Source of the DNA: Candidatus Hodarchaeota archaeon
GTDB taxonomy: Archaea > Asgardarchaeota > Heimdallarchaeia > Hodarchaeales > YT1-057
Reading direction: 5' to 3'
Length of the DNA: 5,951 bases
NCBI GenBank assembly: GCA_016839955.1
Contig: JAEOTI010000552.1
Coordinates: forward strand, 1-5,951
Shown: piece by piece, positions 418 through 5,745 of the stretch
Layout of the letters: every line of letters starts with the position of its first letter
Position numbering within the stretch: the first letter of the stretch is position 1
Made by a program: the position numbers and the translations under genes
Notes under the pieces: generated by a model
Seen by the model: the letters and a program-made list of their open reading frames with translations, nothing else
Database searches by the model: none
Told to the model about the DNA's origin: nothing

Positions 418-2106
418 ATGATTTTAAGAACGGTTGAAATTACCAACCTACGAATGTTTGAAAATGTAAAGATCGAATTCTCTTCATTCACGATTATTAT
501 TGGAGCCAACAACTCTGGAAAAACAACACTGATAGAGACATTAAATAGATTATTTAGGGTTAATAACCCCATGAGTAATATTTTTGAAGAGGAGGAGTTC
601 AGGGATTCATCAGAATCGATTCAAATAAGACTTTCCTTTGATACTTTCTCTGATGCTGATAAAGCACTATTTATTGGGAAAATTCATCAGAATTCATCTA
701 GTAATGAGCTAGAACTTATAATTCAATATCAACAATCAATAACTGAGGACTATCCTATTTGGAAATTTCTGTATCCAGACGACAGGGAGTTAAGATTGGT
801 TGAAGCTAGGCACTTACGCTACTTTCTCTTCTATTCTCATACTGTCCGTGGTCCTCGTGATCACCTTCGACCACAGAGAGCTGGACTGTTTAAGGATTTG
901 ATTAAAACTATTAGATTTTCAAATGACGAAACAGAACGAATTCAAAAAGCTGTTTCAGCCGTGAATCAGCAATTAAAGACCATCTCAAAACTTGAAGAAT
1001 TAAGGCAGACTTTAGACAACCAAATTACTGAAGATCTTCCTACTCCCTTCAACCTATCTTTTAGTTTTTCCTCCGAAGAACCACGAAAGCTATTGAAAAG
1101 TATTTCAATATACCTTGATGAATTAGGGAGAACAGATTCTATTTTTGAATATGGATCGGGGTATCAGAATTTAATTGCGATTATCATGTTTTTTTCTCTT
1201 GTTTCAATGAGTACTGAGAGACAAGCGCTATTTTTAGGGATAGAAGAACCCGAAGCGCACATGCATCCGCAGTTATTGAAAATCTTATTGCGATATCTGA
1301 AAAATCAATCTGCTCAATATCAAATAATTCTAACGACGCACTCTCCTCTAGTGGTTCGTGATTCAGACGCATTTAATATTGTAGTATTGAGAAGAACAAA
1401 TCAATGCTATGTGAGACAACTTCCTAAGTCATCCCAAGAATTTTACACTGAAAAATTATACAAAAAAGTAACCACAGAATTTTGTGAAGCGTTGTTTGCT
1501 AAAGGGGTGGTACTTGTGGAAGGATTTAGTGACCATGTTGTTTATCAAGGACTATGGGACGATTTTTATCGGGGAGATGCTTATTTTTTCTCAGGTGGAG
1601 GAATTGCCTCTACAGCAGGAGCGACTGTTCTCGTAAAAATAGCGAAGGCCCTAAAATCCTTTGATACGCCTATTTTCTACCTTCTCGATAATGATGATGA
1701 GGGTATATTAGCATTTAAGCAATTAGTAGATGCAGGAATGTCTCCGAGTCCTCCTCAGTCCATATCTGAGAATCAAATTCCATCACATGTCAATAGTCAA
1801 TCGAACTCGAACATAATGTTTGTTACTCCTCTGGAAAAGTTAATGCTTAATTCGAATGAGTCGATTGTAGAAGCAGCGATAAGAAAATATCCTAACCAGT
1901 CTTTAGTGGATAATTTTTCGCAAGACATTACAGATCCTACCAAAACCCAACAAGAAATCAATTCAATATTCTTAAATAATATGAAAAAAGATAAAATTCT
2001 CCTTGCTTTCAATTTTTTAGAAGAGGTGCAAGAGAAAACTGACATCGAAGGGGAATTTACTGATATTCTGGATAAAATAGAGGAGTGGATTGGAAATATC
2101 AGATAG
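418..2106 (+). CDS. gajA: OLD-family ATPase/TOPRIM endonuclease, GajA-like (Gabija)
   Basis: This 562-aa protein has the full architecture of GajA, the ATP-regulated DNA-nicking nuclease of Gabija anti-phage defence. The N-terminal ABC-type ATPase shows Walker A GANNSGKTT (29-37), an ABC signature-like GSGYQN (246-251), Walker B with IEEPE (275-279) and the H-loop TTHSP (306-310). The C-terminal TOPRIM domain shows VLVEGFSD (365-372, metal-binding E368), DNDDEG (424-429, D424 and D426) and a late lysine-rich stretch including K526 before a conserved-looking helix. Length is close to known GajA proteins (just under 600 aa). ATG 418 is chosen over the in-frame TTG 412 because the ATPase beta strand begins immediately and the TATA spacing fits. 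The gene overlaps the helicase gene by 17 bp, which is the Gabija order. All catalytic motifs look intact. A stand-alone OLD nuclease is unlikely given the neighbour. Confidence 0.9.
   Translation: MILRTVEITNLRMFENVKIEFSSFTIIIGANNSGKTTLIETLNRLFRVNNPMSNIFEEEEFRDSSESIQIRLSFDTFSDADKALFIGKIHQNSSSNELELIIQYQQSITEDYPIWKFLYPDDRELRLVEARHLRYFLFYSHTVRGPRDHLRPQRAGLFKDLIKTIRFSNDETERIQKAVSAVNQQLKTISKLEELRQTLDNQITEDLPTPFNLSFSFSSEEPRKLLKSISIYLDELGRTDSIFEYGSGYQNLIAIIMFFSLVSMSTERQALFLGIEEPEAHMHPQLLKILLRYLKNQSAQYQIILTTHSPLVVRDSDAFNIVVLRRTNQCYVRQLPKSSQEFYTEKLYKKVTTEFCEALFAKGVVLVEGFSDHVVYQGLWDDFYRGDAYFFSGGGIASTAGATVLVKIAKALKSFDTPIFYLLDNDDEGILAFKQLVDAGMSPSPPQSISENQIPSHVNSQSNSNIMFVTPLEKLMLNSNESIVEAAIRKYPNQSLVDNFSQDITDPTKTQQEINSIFLNNMKKDKILLAFNFLEEVQEKTDIEGEFTDILDKIEEWIGNIR
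2080..2092 (+). promoter_or_regulatory. Ribosome binding site and TTG start of the helicase gene
   Basis: GAGGAG at 2080-2085 lies four bases before TTG 2090, inside the 3' end of the nuclease gene. No ATG or GTG occurs in this frame between 2090 and the Walker A motif (helicase residues 29-36), and the first internal ATG comes after it. The TTG is therefore effectively the only start that keeps the ATPase site. The overlap suggests coupled translation of the two subunits. Confidence 0.7.
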
Positions 2107-3856
2107 AGAACTGGTTTTCGATGAAGATCAAATTCAAGCAATTAATCACGGGGATGGCCCCTGTGCAGTATTTGCAGGCCCAGGCAGTGGAAAGACATTA
2201 GTTCTAACGCAAAGGGTCTTTCGTTTGATACGTGAGAAAATAGTGGAGTATCCCTTCAATATCTTAGCTATTACGTTCACTAATAGAGCAACAGAGGAAA
2301 TGGAGAGTAGATTGAAAAAACTTTTAACTAGACGAGAATTAGATCGAGTTAAAATCTCAACTTTCCACTCTTTCTGCAATGAAATCCTCATTCATTATGG
2401 TTATCTTATTGGTTTTGAGGATTTTTACATTTTCGATCCTCTAGAAAGTAAAAGGTTAATAGATGATTTTAAAAAGAGACGAAGTCCAGTGAGATATCGT
2501 CAATTATCCGAACCAAGATATGAGAATTATTCAAAATGGCTAAGACATCAGTATAATCCAAGGATTCCTAGAATAAGGAGAACTTATTCAGATCTCAATC
2601 AATTCTTTAAAGATTATCAAGCGATGGATTTTGCACACATTTTATACTATACTCATATGCTATTCCAACAAGAAGAATGGGTTCTATCACTTTACCAGAT
2701 TGCTTTTCCATATGTCTTAATTGATGAATTCCAAGACACAAATGAAATCCAATACAAGATTGTACATCAACTATGCTCTGAATCAAGAAATATTTTTATC
2801 GTAGGAGATGATGACCAACAGATTTTTCAATTTCGTGGAGCCTTGAATGAGATTTTTTCCAGATTTTATCTTGATTTTGACAGTCAAAAATTAATCCCTC
2901 TCAGATATAATTACCGGTCTGGCCCTGAAATCGTAGATAGAGCACAGGAGATTCGTGAGCAAAAGACAGAGGTAATGGATAAAAACATGATTCCATTTAA
3001 TACTGAAAGAGAATGCCTTGTATTTCAGCAGGAGCCTTTTGATTCTATAGAGGAAGAAATAGACTTTGTCATTGAAAAAGTCCGATGGTCAAACGAGGAA
3101 AAGCAAATTCCCTTTCATGAAATAGCAATCTTGACTCAACAGTGGAAGTATTTAGAGAATTATGTTAATCATTTAGAAAACCAAGACCTTCCCTTTCGGT
3201 TTCTACAACCCACAAATTTTCAAAATAAGGTAGAATTCCCTATTGCTACTATTATATTAGCCTTTTTACGATCAATTCAACGTCCTAATTCTAATTTTGA
3301 GCTTCGAAACCTTACACTCTCGTATATATCAAACAACTCGTTATCTAGAGAACTATATGAATCAATTCCAATGCAAGAAGAATATACTGAAGTCAAAGAG
3401 TTTATAACTGACATGATTCAAGATGAACTGTTGGAAGACATTATCAATTTAGTAGAAGATCCAGAAGAAGAATTACTTCCTAAATTAAATGAATTAATCG
3501 ATCTCCTACAAGGATCCTTAAATAATCGTCCTAAAGAAACAATTGAAGATGCCTTTTTGGATTTTCTTCTTGAGTATTTACAAGAACGTACAAAAACAAC
3601 GTTCAATTTAGGACGTGTAGTGTCCGAGTTCCTTTTAAGAGGTTATCATGAATATGTTGAGGAAAATAAACTCAATCTGAGTACTTATCACACTTCCAAG
3701 GGACTTCAATTTGATGTCGTGTTTATGGTAGGCTGTCATATTCAAAGAAATATAGACGACGAAGAAATCAATAAAACGTTTGTTGCATTCACCAGGGCCA
3801 GAAAGTACATCTTTTTAACCTGTGTAGAAGATTATCCAAGGCATCTCGAAGAGTGA
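2090..3856 (+). CDS. gajB: UvrD/PcrA-type superfamily 1 helicase, GajB-like (Gabija)
   Basis: This 588-aa protein carries the superfamily 1A helicase motifs in order. They are the Q motif around Q14, Walker A AGPGSGKT (29-36), motif Ia AITFTN (60-65), Ib STFHSF (90-95), Walker B DEFQD (212-216), motif III GDDDQQIFQFRG (239-250), motif IV NYRS (274-277), motif V STYHTSKGLQFD (531-542) and motif VI FVAFTRAR (564-571). In Gabija, GajB binds ATP and joins GajA in a large complex that degrades phage DNA; that role is inferred here from homology and gene order. The protein is somewhat longer than the roughly 500 aa I recall for the Bacillus GajB, with an acidic stretch around residues 440-475 in the 2A/2B region. 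It starts at TTG inside the nuclease gene. A repair helicase is the alternative, but adjacency to the OLD nuclease argues for defence. Confidence 0.88.
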   Translation: MEISDRELVFDEDQIQAINHGDGPCAVFAGPGSGKTLVLTQRVFRLIREKIVEYPFNILAITFTNRATEEMESRLKKLLTRRELDRVKISTFHSFCNEILIHYGYLIGFEDFYIFDPLESKRLIDDFKKRRSPVRYRQLSEPRYENYSKWLRHQYNPRIPRIRRTYSDLNQFFKDYQAMDFAHILYYTHMLFQQEEWVLSLYQIAFPYVLIDEFQDTNEIQYKIVHQLCSESRNIFIVGDDDQQIFQFRGALNEIFSRFYLDFDSQKLIPLRYNYRSGPEIVDRAQEIREQKTEVMDKNMIPFNTERECLVFQQEPFDSIEEEIDFVIEKVRWSNEEKQIPFHEIAILTQQWKYLENYVNHLENQDLPFRFLQPTNFQNKVEFPIATIILAFLRSIQRPNSNFELRNLTLSYISNNSLSRELYESIPMQEEYTEVKEFITDMIQDELLEDIINLVEDPEEELLPKLNELIDLLQGSLNNRPKETIEDAFLDFLLEYLQERTKTTFNLGRVVSEFLLRGYHEYVEENKLNLSTYHTSKGLQFDVVFMVGCHIQRNIDDEEINKTFVAFTRARKYIFLTCVEDYPRHLEE

Positions 3857-3894
3857 TTTCTATCTGGATCAGAAATCTGAAAAATCTAATTTTT
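3855..3894 (+). terminator. Hairpin plus T-run after the Gabija operon
   Basis: GATTTCT (3855-3861) pairs with AGAAATC (3871-3877) in a perfect 7-bp stem with a 9-base loop, and TTTTT follows at 3890-3894. The stem overlaps the helicase stop codon (3854-3856). Because minus-strand reading frames converge here, the hairpin could end transcription from both sides. The gap between stem and T-run is longer than in a bacterial intrinsic terminator; archaea mainly need the T-run. Confidence 0.4.
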
Positions 3895-4164
3895 GAATTG
3901 CATCCCTTTGTCTGCGGTTCTTTCTTGAACGATTTTTTGATCAATGCCCAGCTGTTCTGCCTTACTGGTCATGGCCTTCCGATAGCAATCCGCAGTGGTC
4001 TCTCCATAACCAGTTTGTAAAAGGACAAAGAGTACCTTCCTTTCATAACTGTCAGTTTTAAATTCACACTTCTGGGCACTTCTGTCCAGTTTCGTGGAAT
4101 TGCTTTTTTTGGCACGATTTTTCCCAAAAGCTATTGCTTCTTTATTCAGGTTTCTTGTTATTTC
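3886..4164 (-). pseudogene. Startless 92-codon open frame, probable gene remnant
   Basis: The 316 bases between the helicase and the longin-like gene hold one long minus-strand open frame, from just after a TAA (4167-4165) to TAG at 3888-3886. It reads as a credible protein fragment, for example KVLFVLLQTGYGETTADCYR and KAEQLGIDQKIVQERTADKG, with mixed charged and hydrophobic residues. It has no ATG, GTG or TTG in its first half; the only good start, ATG 3972, would leave 28 aa. It begins eight bases beyond the stop of the upstream gene in another frame. It may be the 3' end of a decayed gene or a frameshifted extension of that gene. No family is recognised. Confidence 0.35.
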
Positions 4165-4172
4165 TTATATCC

Positions 4173-4607
4173 TCACAAAGAATAAGGACGAGTAGCAGAA
4201 GGGTGATGAAAGAAAAATTGCCGCAGAATTTCATCGATTTTATTCTTGAAAGGTTGAAACACGCTAGTACTAACAATGGGTTGGGCTAGGTATTCTGTAT
4301 ATTGGTGGATAAACGAGTGGTATAGCTGGTCAAGGATTTTGCTTAAGTCAATCTGAAATTTCAGGTCTGTCAAGACTGCGACAATAAGATCGGTCTTGGA
4401 TTTGAAAATTATCTTGGTATATTCCAGATGCAACTCTGAGATGTTTTCATTCATTGCAGTCTTCATTATATTATTGATTACAGTAAGTAAAGCACTGAAG
4501 AGATCGATGTGATCCACATCCATTGTCTGATAGTCGTGTGTCAGTAAACACTTGCCTTGGTGGATAATGATGACACTCTTGATCATTGTCTGACAAACCT
4601 GGATCAT
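4173..4607 (-). CDS. Longin/roadblock-like small protein
   Basis: This 144-aa protein begins with a short hydrophobic strand (IKSVIII), then a loop (HQGKCLLTHDY), a long helix with DLFSALLTVINNIM, strands ELHLEYTKIIFKSK and DLIVAVLTD, and a helical tail. This strand-helix-strand order resembles the longin/roadblock-like domains that are expanded in Asgard archaea, often next to small GTPases, where they act as scaffolds or regulators. The assignment is by fold pattern, not by a catalytic motif. ATG 4607 is chosen because it overlaps the upstream TGA as ATGA, a coupled start. An in-frame ATG at 4676 would add 23 residues inside the neighbouring gene and an internal ATG at 4586 is also possible. 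The last residues (FFFHHPSATRPYSL) look unlike a folded domain. The partner and pathway are unknown. Confidence 0.6.
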   Translation of the reverse strand: MIQVCQTMIKSVIIIHQGKCLLTHDYQTMDVDHIDLFSALLTVINNIMKTAMNENISELHLEYTKIIFKSKTDLIVAVLTDLKFQIDLSKILDQLYHSFIHQYTEYLAQPIVSTSVFQPFKNKIDEILRQFFFHHPSATRPYSL

Positions 4608-4957
4608 GGCGGTAAACCTACTGGGGTTCTGGAGTCGGTGAAAAGGTGGCTCAAATATCCACTTATCCCCCCACATAGGAGAATCACTGGCGACGTGTTA
4701 TACCATATTCGTAGAGTTACAAATAGGACAGAAAACGATACCACTAGTCCTAGTAGCATTCGCCACGAATGAAAAAACTCTCTATGGTTCCAATCTGTTG
4801 GGGGTTCGAGGATATTAGGGAGAATAGCCCCAAGACCGCCTCCACTGAGCATTAAAACACTTGTTACTACTAAATCGTAATTTGGCATCCCCTCATACAT
4901 TAACAGTCCGACCCCACCACTGATGATTCCGAGAATTGCGTGATTCTTCACATTCAT
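4604..4957 (-). CDS. YdjM/DUF457-like small membrane protein (putative metal-dependent hydrolase fold)
   Basis: This 117-aa protein is very hydrophobic, with about four membrane segments (roughly residues 7-21, 29-46, 67-86 and 89-106). It keeps the histidine/aspartate pattern of the YdjM/DUF457 family: H6 near the N terminus, GAILPNILEP (43-52), HREFFHS (58-64), and the C-terminal SHLFTDSRTPVGLP (103-116). The family is annotated as membrane-bound, putatively metal-dependent hydrolases, but the reaction is not established. Family members often have LPDxD where this protein has LPNIL, so one metal ligand may be missing. ATG 4957 is preferred; TTG 4963, six bases upstream and closer to a GAAGGG sequence, is also possible. 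It is first in a two-gene minus-strand unit, coupled by ATGA to the longin-like gene. Confidence 0.7.
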   Translation of the reverse strand: MNVKNHAILGIISGGVGLLMYEGMPNYDLVVTSVLMLSGGGLGAILPNILEPPTDWNHREFFHSWRMLLGLVVSFSVLFVTLRIWYNTSPVILLCGGISGYLSHLFTDSRTPVGLPP

Positions 4958-5092: not shown

Positions 5093-5479
5093 ATGAAAAT
5101 GACATCTCCGAATTATATGTCCAAGCGCAGGTCAAATATCGAAATATTGAAGTCCCTAAAAGAGTTTGTAGAGAATAAAAAAAGGGAAGGGGTACAAGAA
5201 TTCTTCAAATCAGAATTGAGAAGTTCTAAGGATAAAGTGTTCCCAAAGACTGCATTTAGTTTTTTCCAAATTATTGAAAAAGCACAGACAGAGTTTCCCC
5301 GAATTAAAGTACGAGAAGTAGGAGGTAGTACTCTAATCAGTATCTTGAATGATTCAGAAACATTTGTTGAGTTAATTGACAAATTAATTGCGGATGTCAG
5401 ACTTTCTAAAGAGACATCTGCAGAATTAATTACCCTCCGTACCAAACTTCAATCGGGGGAGATTGATGACCAAAAGTGA
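5093..5479 (+). CDS. Small basic protein, possible winged-helix DNA-binding regulator
   Basis: This 128-aa protein is not confidently assignable. Residues 11-31 (KRRSNIEILKSLKEFVENKKR) resemble the basic first helix of many archaeal winged-helix proteins. A helix-turn-helix-like segment follows (50-66, FPKTAFSFFQIIEKAQT), then a strand-loop-strand (70-84, RIKVREVGGSTLISI) that could be the wing. The C-terminal 40 residues form helices that could dimerise. There are no cysteine pairs or membrane segments. In-frame ATGs at 5093, 5099 and 5117 are all plausible; the first is taken. It faces the inverted repeat at 4995-5072, which fits autoregulation. It is followed 20 bp later by the 5500 gene in the same direction, probably as one operon. 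An uncharacterised coiled-coil or tetrameric protein is the alternative. Confidence 0.55.
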   Translation: MKMTSPNYMSKRRSNIEILKSLKEFVENKKREGVQEFFKSELRSSKDKVFPKTAFSFFQIIEKAQTEFPRIKVREVGGSTLISILNDSETFVELIDKLIADVRLSKETSAELITLRTKLQSGEIDDQK

Positions 5480-5499: not shown

Positions 5500-5745
5500 A
5501 TGCCCGATAGAGACCATGTTTATCAGACAACTCTCAAGGATATAGAACAACTGAAAAAGGTGCAGTTGGAAAACCTAGAGTCGTTGAAGACGTTAAGCGA
5601 ATTAAAGAATAATCAACAGATACTTATCGACCAAACAACACGAAATGTCTATACTGCAACTGATGGGCAGGGAAATAAGAAATTTACCAACGAAACCATG
5701 CGGAATACAGAGATCAATAGAAAATTGGCGGAATCGGAAGAATAA
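5500..5745 (+). CDS. Small coiled-coil protein, unknown, apparently truncated
   Basis: This 81-aa protein begins with a charged amphipathic helix (about residues 8-45, rich in L, E, K and Q), passes through a short polar stretch with YTATDGQGNKK, and returns to helix. ATG 5500 is preceded by GTGGTGGT (5487-5494), an acceptable archaeal Shine-Dalgarno sequence 5-7 bases away. The gene lies 20 bp behind the 5093 gene. Translation stops at TAA 5743-5745 in the middle of a helix, and the same frame resumes with a similar helical sequence (see 5746-5877). The intact ancestor, or a read-through product, would be 125 residues. No family or partner is recognised; coiled-coil proteins usually oligomerise or bind another protein. 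Confidence 0.5.
   Translation: MPDRDHVYQTTLKDIEQLKKVQLENLESLKTLSELKNNQQILIDQTTRNVYTATDGQGNKKFTNETMRNTEINRKLAESEE

Follow-up and report, generated by a model that had tools for sequence, protein, structure and literature searches.

The window analysed here (the whole stretch of 5,951 nt on contig JAEOTI010000552.1) contains at 418-3856 a pair of genes with what is probably a Gabija (gajA-gajB), or class 2 OLD, architecture, on a divergent, deep and sparsely sampled branch. The gene architecture, the catalytic residues and the fold of the GajA-like protein are best read as Gabija, i.e., a class 2 OLD nuclease with a UvrD-like helicase. Filing of the pair as Gabija is sound at the level of the family but not at the level of a clade. 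The following features were identified in the pair.

418-2106, +: gajA-like gene (open reading frame (ORF) calling; ATG start, 562 aa), OLD-family ABC ATPase and TOPRIM nuclease
502-525, +: Walker A motif GANNSGKT, residues 29-36 (alignment)
1492-2103, +: TOPRIM domain and C-terminal part (Pfam, alignment)
1519-1521, 1687-1689, 1693-1695, 1834-1836 and 1993-1995, +: TOPRIM residues E368, D424, D426, E473 and K526, respectively
2081-2085, +: AGGAG, 4 nt before the TTG of the gajB-like gene (read from the sequence)
2090-2106, +: overlap of the gajA-like and gajB-like genes, 17 nt
2090-3856, +: gajB-like gene (ORF calling; TTG start, 588 aa), UvrD/PcrA/Rep-like helicase of superfamily 1A (SF1A)
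2177-2197, +: motif I (Walker A) GPGSGKT (alignment)
2717-2743, +: motif II region LIDEFQDTN (alignment)
3242-3664, +: 2B-equivalent part, residues 385-525, acidic and mostly helical in a low-confidence model
3323-3340, +: YISNNS where PcrA/UvrD have the GIG motif (alignment)
3791-3856, +: motif VI TRA and short C terminus, 21 aa from TRA, with the 'pin' hairpin region shortened

Class 2 OLD systems are defined by a tandem helicase (PMC10568477, PMC12796447), and the gene of an SF1A helicase adjoins the gajA-like gene here, which is therefore not a solitary class 1 OLD gene. The overlap of the two genes, reported in an earlier note on this DNA, was found again, and their spacing lies inside the distribution for 73 related pairs. 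The ATG at 418 agrees with the start of the closest relative, P0002.

The GajA-like nuclease and its relatives

The GajA-like protein combines an OLD-family ATPase and a TOPRIM domain, represented by the Pfam families AAA_15 (1.2e-30), AAA_21 and OLD-like TOPRIM PF20469 (7.8e-8), with intact catalytic residues; its best PADLOC match is GajA (2.8e-42). In the alignment with 73 helicase-paired GajA relatives, residues E276, E277, P278, E279, H283, D424 and K526 are identical in all 73, and R144 and G369 also stand in invariant columns. H308 is kept in 72/73 relatives, E368 in 72/73 (D in one), D426 in 68/73 (E in five) and E473 in 68/73 (D in five). Walker A residues G29, N31 and K35 are kept in 71/73, the two other rows being gapped, while N32 and T36 are variable. 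Residues E368, H308 and K35 align to E379, H320 and K35 of Bacillus GajA, and K526 and E473 presumably correspond to its K541 and D511; nicking was reported to be lost in the Bacillus variants E379A, D511A and K541A (PMC8136825). The intact Walker and EEPE residues would allow ATP binding and perhaps hydrolysis.

The predicted structure of the GajA-like protein has a mean predicted local distance difference test score (pLDDT) of 85.3 and a predicted template modelling score (pTM) of 0.85. The top Foldseek match of the model is Gabija GajA (TMq ~0.6), and VIA ties GajA with the class 1 OLD of Thermus scotoductus (TsOLD), aligning 482 residues of GajA at a root-mean-square deviation of 5.4 vs 455 residues of TsOLD at 8.2. 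The predicted fold resembles that of Bacillus GajA. After the DxD aspartate D424 the GajA-like protein has 138 residues and TsOLD 97, about 40 fewer, so that its length would suit the helical insert of class 2 TOPRIM domains; in the 73 paired relatives the median is 143 residues (5-95% range 112-189, lowest 92).

A capped search of ~5.8 billion proteins gave 1660 matches, 120 of which were listed. The closest among those listed is P0002 (67% identity), followed by P0003 (26% identity over 97% of the length); the remaining listed matches are 21-33% identical, nearly all covering part of the protein. Judging from sequence, the GajA-like protein and these two metagenomic relatives form a deep lineage. 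Both proteins of the pair also match virus families, namely phrog_4747 (2.4e-46, unknown function) for the GajA-like protein and phrog_1967 (DNA helicase, 2.9e-85) for the helicase; viruses of prokaryotes therefore encode relatives of both the OLD protein and the helicase.

Gene context was analysed for 93 GajA loci, including the best 80 of 416 confirmed by a peptide-pattern scan and 13 from whole-genome searches of three phyla; two of the loci, L085 and L089, re-fetch L042 and L002. A locus was counted as paired when a same-strand helicase, linked by BLASTP to the GajB-like protein of the window, lay within -200 to +600 nt, and 73/93 loci were paired. Accordingly, most of the fetched relatives are class 2 (Gabija) nucleases with similar spacing. 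Among the 20 loci not counted as paired, the sequence stops <=260 nt from the gene in four (L009, L017, L024, L041), visual inspection points to a more distant, helicase-like neighbour in another four (L012, L013, L021, L070), L025 has a related helicase ~1.2 kb downstream, and 11 have no helicase in the available stretch, which is short for some of them.

Contig scans covered all available GTDB species with two peptide patterns each; one gave the 416 confirmed loci, and the other gave zero confirmed relatives. Viral contigs yielded no relative of GajA, the ORF at 5093 or the YdjM-like protein described below (two to six peptide patterns each), and no GajA match in phage and plasmid records reached 80% query coverage. 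In archaeal genomes, matches to GajA were found in 8/292 genomes of the phylum of a Thermoplasmatota metagenome-assembled genome (MAG) (E<=1e-10), 1/398 of the phylum of a Thaumarchaeota MAG and 14/392 of the phylum of a Methanophagales MAG (both E<=1e-15), the phylum in each case being deduced from the title of the locus through which the genomes were reached.

The helicase and its acidic 2B-equivalent part

The second protein matches the Pfam families UvrD N (2.2e-65) and UvrD_C (4.8e-18), and its best PADLOC match is GajB (1.1e-82; best model PDLC00132, 276.7 bits). The Q motif and motifs I-VI are all present and would permit ATPase activity. The earlier note had described the ATPase, TOPRIM and helicase motifs as intact, which is borne out by these motifs and by the near-invariant catalytic residues of the GajA-like protein. 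Similar to PcrA, UvrD and Rep, the helicase has all SF1A motifs and a PcrA-like core, with ~30% identity.

Ninety helicases were compared, including 66 located beside GajA relatives and 23 PcrA/UvrD-like rows; six reference rows were omitted (two truncated, four identical to GajB rows). The helicase was said to be longer than the Bacillus protein, and with 588 aa it does exceed the 494 aa of Bacillus GajB (PMC10681800), but this length is ordinary among the 66 helicases (535-688 aa). A crude GIG pattern was found in 12/23 PcrA/UvrD-like rows and 2/66 GajB rows; by eye, G[IV]G is present in 7/8 PcrA/UvrD/Rep-type rows printed and EIG in the eighth. From TRA of motif VI to the C terminus, the window helicase has 21 residues vs 30-172 in the 23 PcrA/UvrD-like rows. 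In the sequence alignment, the GIG motif, the C-terminal (separation-pin) hairpin, the PSRF block of PcrA and the C-terminal tail, typical of housekeeping PcrA/UvrD/Rep, are absent from the window helicase. Since many GajBs retain a shortened PSRF end, it is reduced further than most of them. Bacillus GajB is reported to lack the UvrD gating helix, the GIG motif and the separation pin, and to have no helicase activity (PMC10681800).

The 2B-equivalent part is acidic. An acidic region around residues 440-475, noted earlier, proved a good lead: the acidity is real, although the densest 40 residues are 421-460, with a net charge of -14, the lowest of the 90 helicases (next -11). The segment between motifs IV and V has a net charge of -26 in 260 residues, or -0.10 per residue (next lowest of the 90, -0.058), and the whole window helicase is the most acidic of those compared. 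Three helicase profiles, built from PcrA-like GajB, PcrA/UvrD type (12 rows) and other GajB, give residues 386-525 scores of 1.5-2.9 bits; for the piece starting at residue 385 no Pfam match was found, and PDB sequence matches are at chance level (E >= 0.11). In the model of the full-length helicase, made from an alignment of phmmer matches without labelled GajBs, this part is mostly helical at low confidence, with pLDDT <50 for residues 399-456.

Salt adaptation as the source of the acidity is unlikely because the acidity is confined: residues 385-525 carry -17 in 141 aa, residues 1-273 only -3, and four flanking proteins are near neutral (-0.025 to +0.031 per residue). An acidic 2B part would be expected to repel DNA; therefore, a role in sensing or gating would be likelier than unwinding.

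Function, descent and competing readings

By analogy with Bacillus Gabija, the pair would likely be a two-gene antiviral defence operon of Gabija type. The GajA-like protein would oligomerise via its ABC ATPase domain, and bound nucleoside triphosphate would keep its TOPRIM nuclease shut. The GajB-like protein would dock on it and may act as an ATPase and a sensor of DNA or nucleotides rather than as a true unwinding helicase. Upon infection, depletion of nucleotides or exposure of abnormal DNA would lead to DNA cutting by the TOPRIM centre (E368, D424, D426, E473, K526). In Bacillus Gabija, nucleotide-bound GajA is described as shut, and loss of nucleotides opens the TOPRIM site; GajB tunes substrate choice and sensing, and no unwinding was seen; on ATP hydrolysis by GajA, the reports disagree (PMC8136825, PMC10822852, PMC10681800, PMC12796447).

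The GajA tree was built by a quick method from 103 rows, including 12 of the 119 other listed proteins; three of the 93 loci were omitted for short ORFs, and L005 was labelled paired without helicase evidence. The window GajA, P0002 and P0003 form one lineage (99*). The GajB tree contains 96 rows, 11/73 paired helicases of <=500 aa being omitted; the helicases of L002 (7746-9533) and L076 (7709-9451), located beside GajA relatives, are likewise unplaced in it between GajB and PcrA types. Rows taken as 'housekeeping' in these comparisons were assumed to be so from length and similarity rather than gene context. In a careful tree of 38 chosen rows, the PcrA/UvrD-type set excludes the window helicase (87/88), and both together form one side of a branch at 74/72. 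In approximately unbiased (AU) tests, grouping of the window helicase with 17 PcrA-like GajBs (p-AU 0.39) or with L002 (p 0.44) was not rejected; moving it into the PcrA/UvrD/Rep core costs 4.35 log units, which is not significant (p-AU 0.093).

A number of observations limit the filing of the pair as Gabija to the level of the family. In the trees and AU tests neither subunit falls inside a resolved Gabija clade: the GajA lineage joins a weakly supported backbone holding both paired and unpaired (helicase-less) rows, and in the 96-row tree the helicase lies, without supported placement, on the side of the PcrA-like Gabija helicases and the PcrA/UvrD type. Of the complete Gabija operon with genes in canonical order proposed in the earlier note, the architecture, catalytic residues and GajA fold are retained, but 'canonical' claims too much. 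In hidden Markov model (HMM) scoring, the window helicase reaches 337.0 bits with PcrA-like GajB, 332.4 with PcrA/UvrD type and 280.3 with other GajB, while members of the first two groups, scored by leave-one-out, favour their own group by ~100 bits or more, except L002; 16/17 PcrA-like GajBs do so by >100 bits and L002 (Methanophagales) by 11.5. Unplaced in the trees and tied in these scores, the window helicase is therefore an orphan. It is closer to PcrA than to Bacillus GajB, both in sequence and, in a model with a low-confidence 2B part, in predicted fold. Six UvrD-like helicases of 611-634 aa among the 23 rows also lack the GIG pattern and have short C termini, so that the missing GIG appears, at the level of sequence, not to be special to GajB. 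The models for GajA and GajB give the best PADLOC matches of both proteins, but those for GajB were rejected as proof of Gabija: on PDLC00114 and PDLC00132, four PcrA/UvrD-like controls score 305-407 bits vs 276.7 for the window helicase, and PADLOC GajB matches alone are therefore weak evidence. Across PDLC00114, PDLC00132 and PDLC03802 (GajB and DRT-helicase profiles), four PcrA/UvrD-like helicases score 290-469 bits.

A competing reading is a convergent origin: a PcrA-like helicase would have been acquired separately by an OLD lineage that lies outside known Gabija, and the pair would work much like Gabija without descending from it. The helicase-less OLDs on the backbone of the GajA tree and the near-equal profile scores agree with such an origin, as does the lack of correlation between GajA and GajB identities (mirror-tree rho -0.03 for the window vs a median of 0.615 in 62 other loci). 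The last result is uninformative, however, because the distances are near-equal and saturated; grouping with PcrA-like GajBs is not rejected by the trees, and loss of GIG and C-terminal shortening parallel GajB. We consider convergence unlikely.

A more specific scenario, distinctly improbable, is a separate OLD-helicase defence lineage, probably archaeal, in which the second subunit was rebuilt from a PcrA-type helicase. The ATP motor would have been kept, the strand-separating elements lost and the DNA-binding 2B arm replaced by an acidic helical DNA mimic, blocking the DNA channel of GajA until it is displaced by genuine DNA or by turnover of ATP.

It is very unlikely that the genes are chance neighbours, i.e., a standalone OLD nuclease beside an unrelated UvrD/PcrA-like helicase with no joint function. 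PcrA-like proteins are indeed the top phmmer matches of the helicase among those listed (~30% identity), and UvrD/PcrA/Rep rank first for its structure model, the alignment behind which holds no labelled GajB; Bacillus GajB is absent among the VIA and Foldseek matches listed for this model, which does not exclude likeness to GajB. Some short UvrD-like helicases lack GIG as well. Against chance stand the 17-nt overlap, the helicase adjacency typical of GajA relatives (73/93), the 21-residue end after TRA, shorter than in all 23 PcrA/UvrD-like rows, and the lower likelihood, though not significantly so, of placement inside the PcrA/UvrD/Rep core.

A non-defence system analogous to Cran1 of Saccharolobus, an archaeal OLD acting in the cell cycle, which shows that such proteins can be cellular rather than antiviral (PMC12796447), is scarcely credible here. 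That report assigns Cran1 to a new class of its own; the window GajA has a helicase partner, and only two near relatives stand among the matches listed, whereas a core gene would be spread evenly.

As a Gabija-type system, the pair adds a deep branch whose sequences are remote from those of the structurally characterised Bacillus cereus system. If the helicase was recruited independently, the Gabija arrangement evolved more than once, and the role of the helicase is separable from unwinding. The acidic 2B part is a concrete feature that can be tested by deletion.

Flanking genes, host and known systems

Downstream of the pair, the following features were identified.

3886-4164, -: 92-codon stop-to-stop frame downstream of gajB that has no clear start, matches neither PHROG (E <= 0.1) nor Pfam (E <= 1) and may be the debris of a gene
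4173-4676, -: 167-aa ORF overlapping the YdjM-like gene, an orphan whose only match at E <= 0.01 is its own gene call P0241
4604-4963, -: gene of a YdjM-like small membrane protein (PF04307, 8.9e-9, 119 aa)
5093-5479 and 5500-5745, +: small ORFs that match no family significantly and may form one operon

The possibility that a frameshift splits one gene into the YdjM-like ORF and the 4173-4676 ORF was considered and rejected: the YdjM-like protein has 119 aa, and the matching frames have 123-147 aa in 9/10 genomes and 180 in the tenth. No RNA family match and no tRNA were found in the window, and sigma-70 promoters number 19 vs 19.4 expected.

An archaeal origin of the window is plausible. In the phylum of a Methanophagales MAG, 10/246 genomes have YdjM-like relatives; in two further archaeal phyla and two bacterial ones the counts are 0/200, 0/145, 0/149 and 0/150, without an internal positive control for these empty phyla. 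Part of the protein is also matched by one plasmid of Salinibacter, a bacterium. A perfect TTTAAATA after A-rich sequence lies 68 nt before the YdjM-like ATG, and the five other starts scanned in this way, that of gajA among them, have none. The archaeal promoter geometry claimed earlier is weak for gajA: TTTAWATA with <=1 mismatch was not found in the 80 nt upstream, which contain only a loose AT-rich stretch. Homology of GajA does not assign a host, the best match in the sampled genomes of three archaeal phyla reaching only 102 bits, with no whole-genome search centred on Asgard or DPANN archaea. The 'probable archaeon' of the earlier note thus keeps the YdjM-like gene and one promoter-like site, and is plausible at most.

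Gabija is reported in >15% of sequenced bacterial and archaeal genomes (PMC10781630), in ~8.5% of bacteria and archaea by an earlier count (PMC8136825), and in an Aenigmarchaeota bin (PMC8407114); the word Gabija does not occur in the main text searched of an Asgard genome survey and of a survey covering 7747 archaeal genomes (PMC11291487, PMC12988326). Four contigs with archaeal titles, L002 (Methanophagales), L042 (Thermoplasmatota), L057 (Thaumarchaeota) and L028 (Methanobrevibacter), carry adjoining homologues of GajA and GajB, with GajA and GajB as best PADLOC matches. The novelty in host range suggested by the earlier note fails because of these published and newly found archaeal systems, and with Gabija already documented in archaea, an archaeal host would by itself be of little added value. 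The GajAs of L042, L057 and L028 belong to starred clades with bacterial members, and that of L002 groups with two genomes and two database proteins; the window GajA belongs to none of these groups.

Class 1 OLD proteins such as TsOLD (6p74) are encoded by solo genes (PMC10781630), unlike the pair in the window. Compared with PcrA, UvrD and Rep, the window helicase is set apart by the missing GIG, the reduced C terminus and an unrelated acidic 2B part. Similar to Gabija of Bacillus cereus VD045 (8sm3, 8jqb, 8u7i), the window encodes an ABC ATPase with TOPRIM first, with matching catalytic residues, and an SF1 helicase second, which likewise has no GIG motif and a shortened hairpin region. In structural alignment of full-length chains (8u7i, 8sm3, 8x5i_D), Bacillus GajA is only 16-18% identical to the window GajA, and the window helicase differs from Bacillus GajB in its length (588 vs 494 aa), its PcrA-sized and very acidic segment between motifs IV and V and its intact Q motif.

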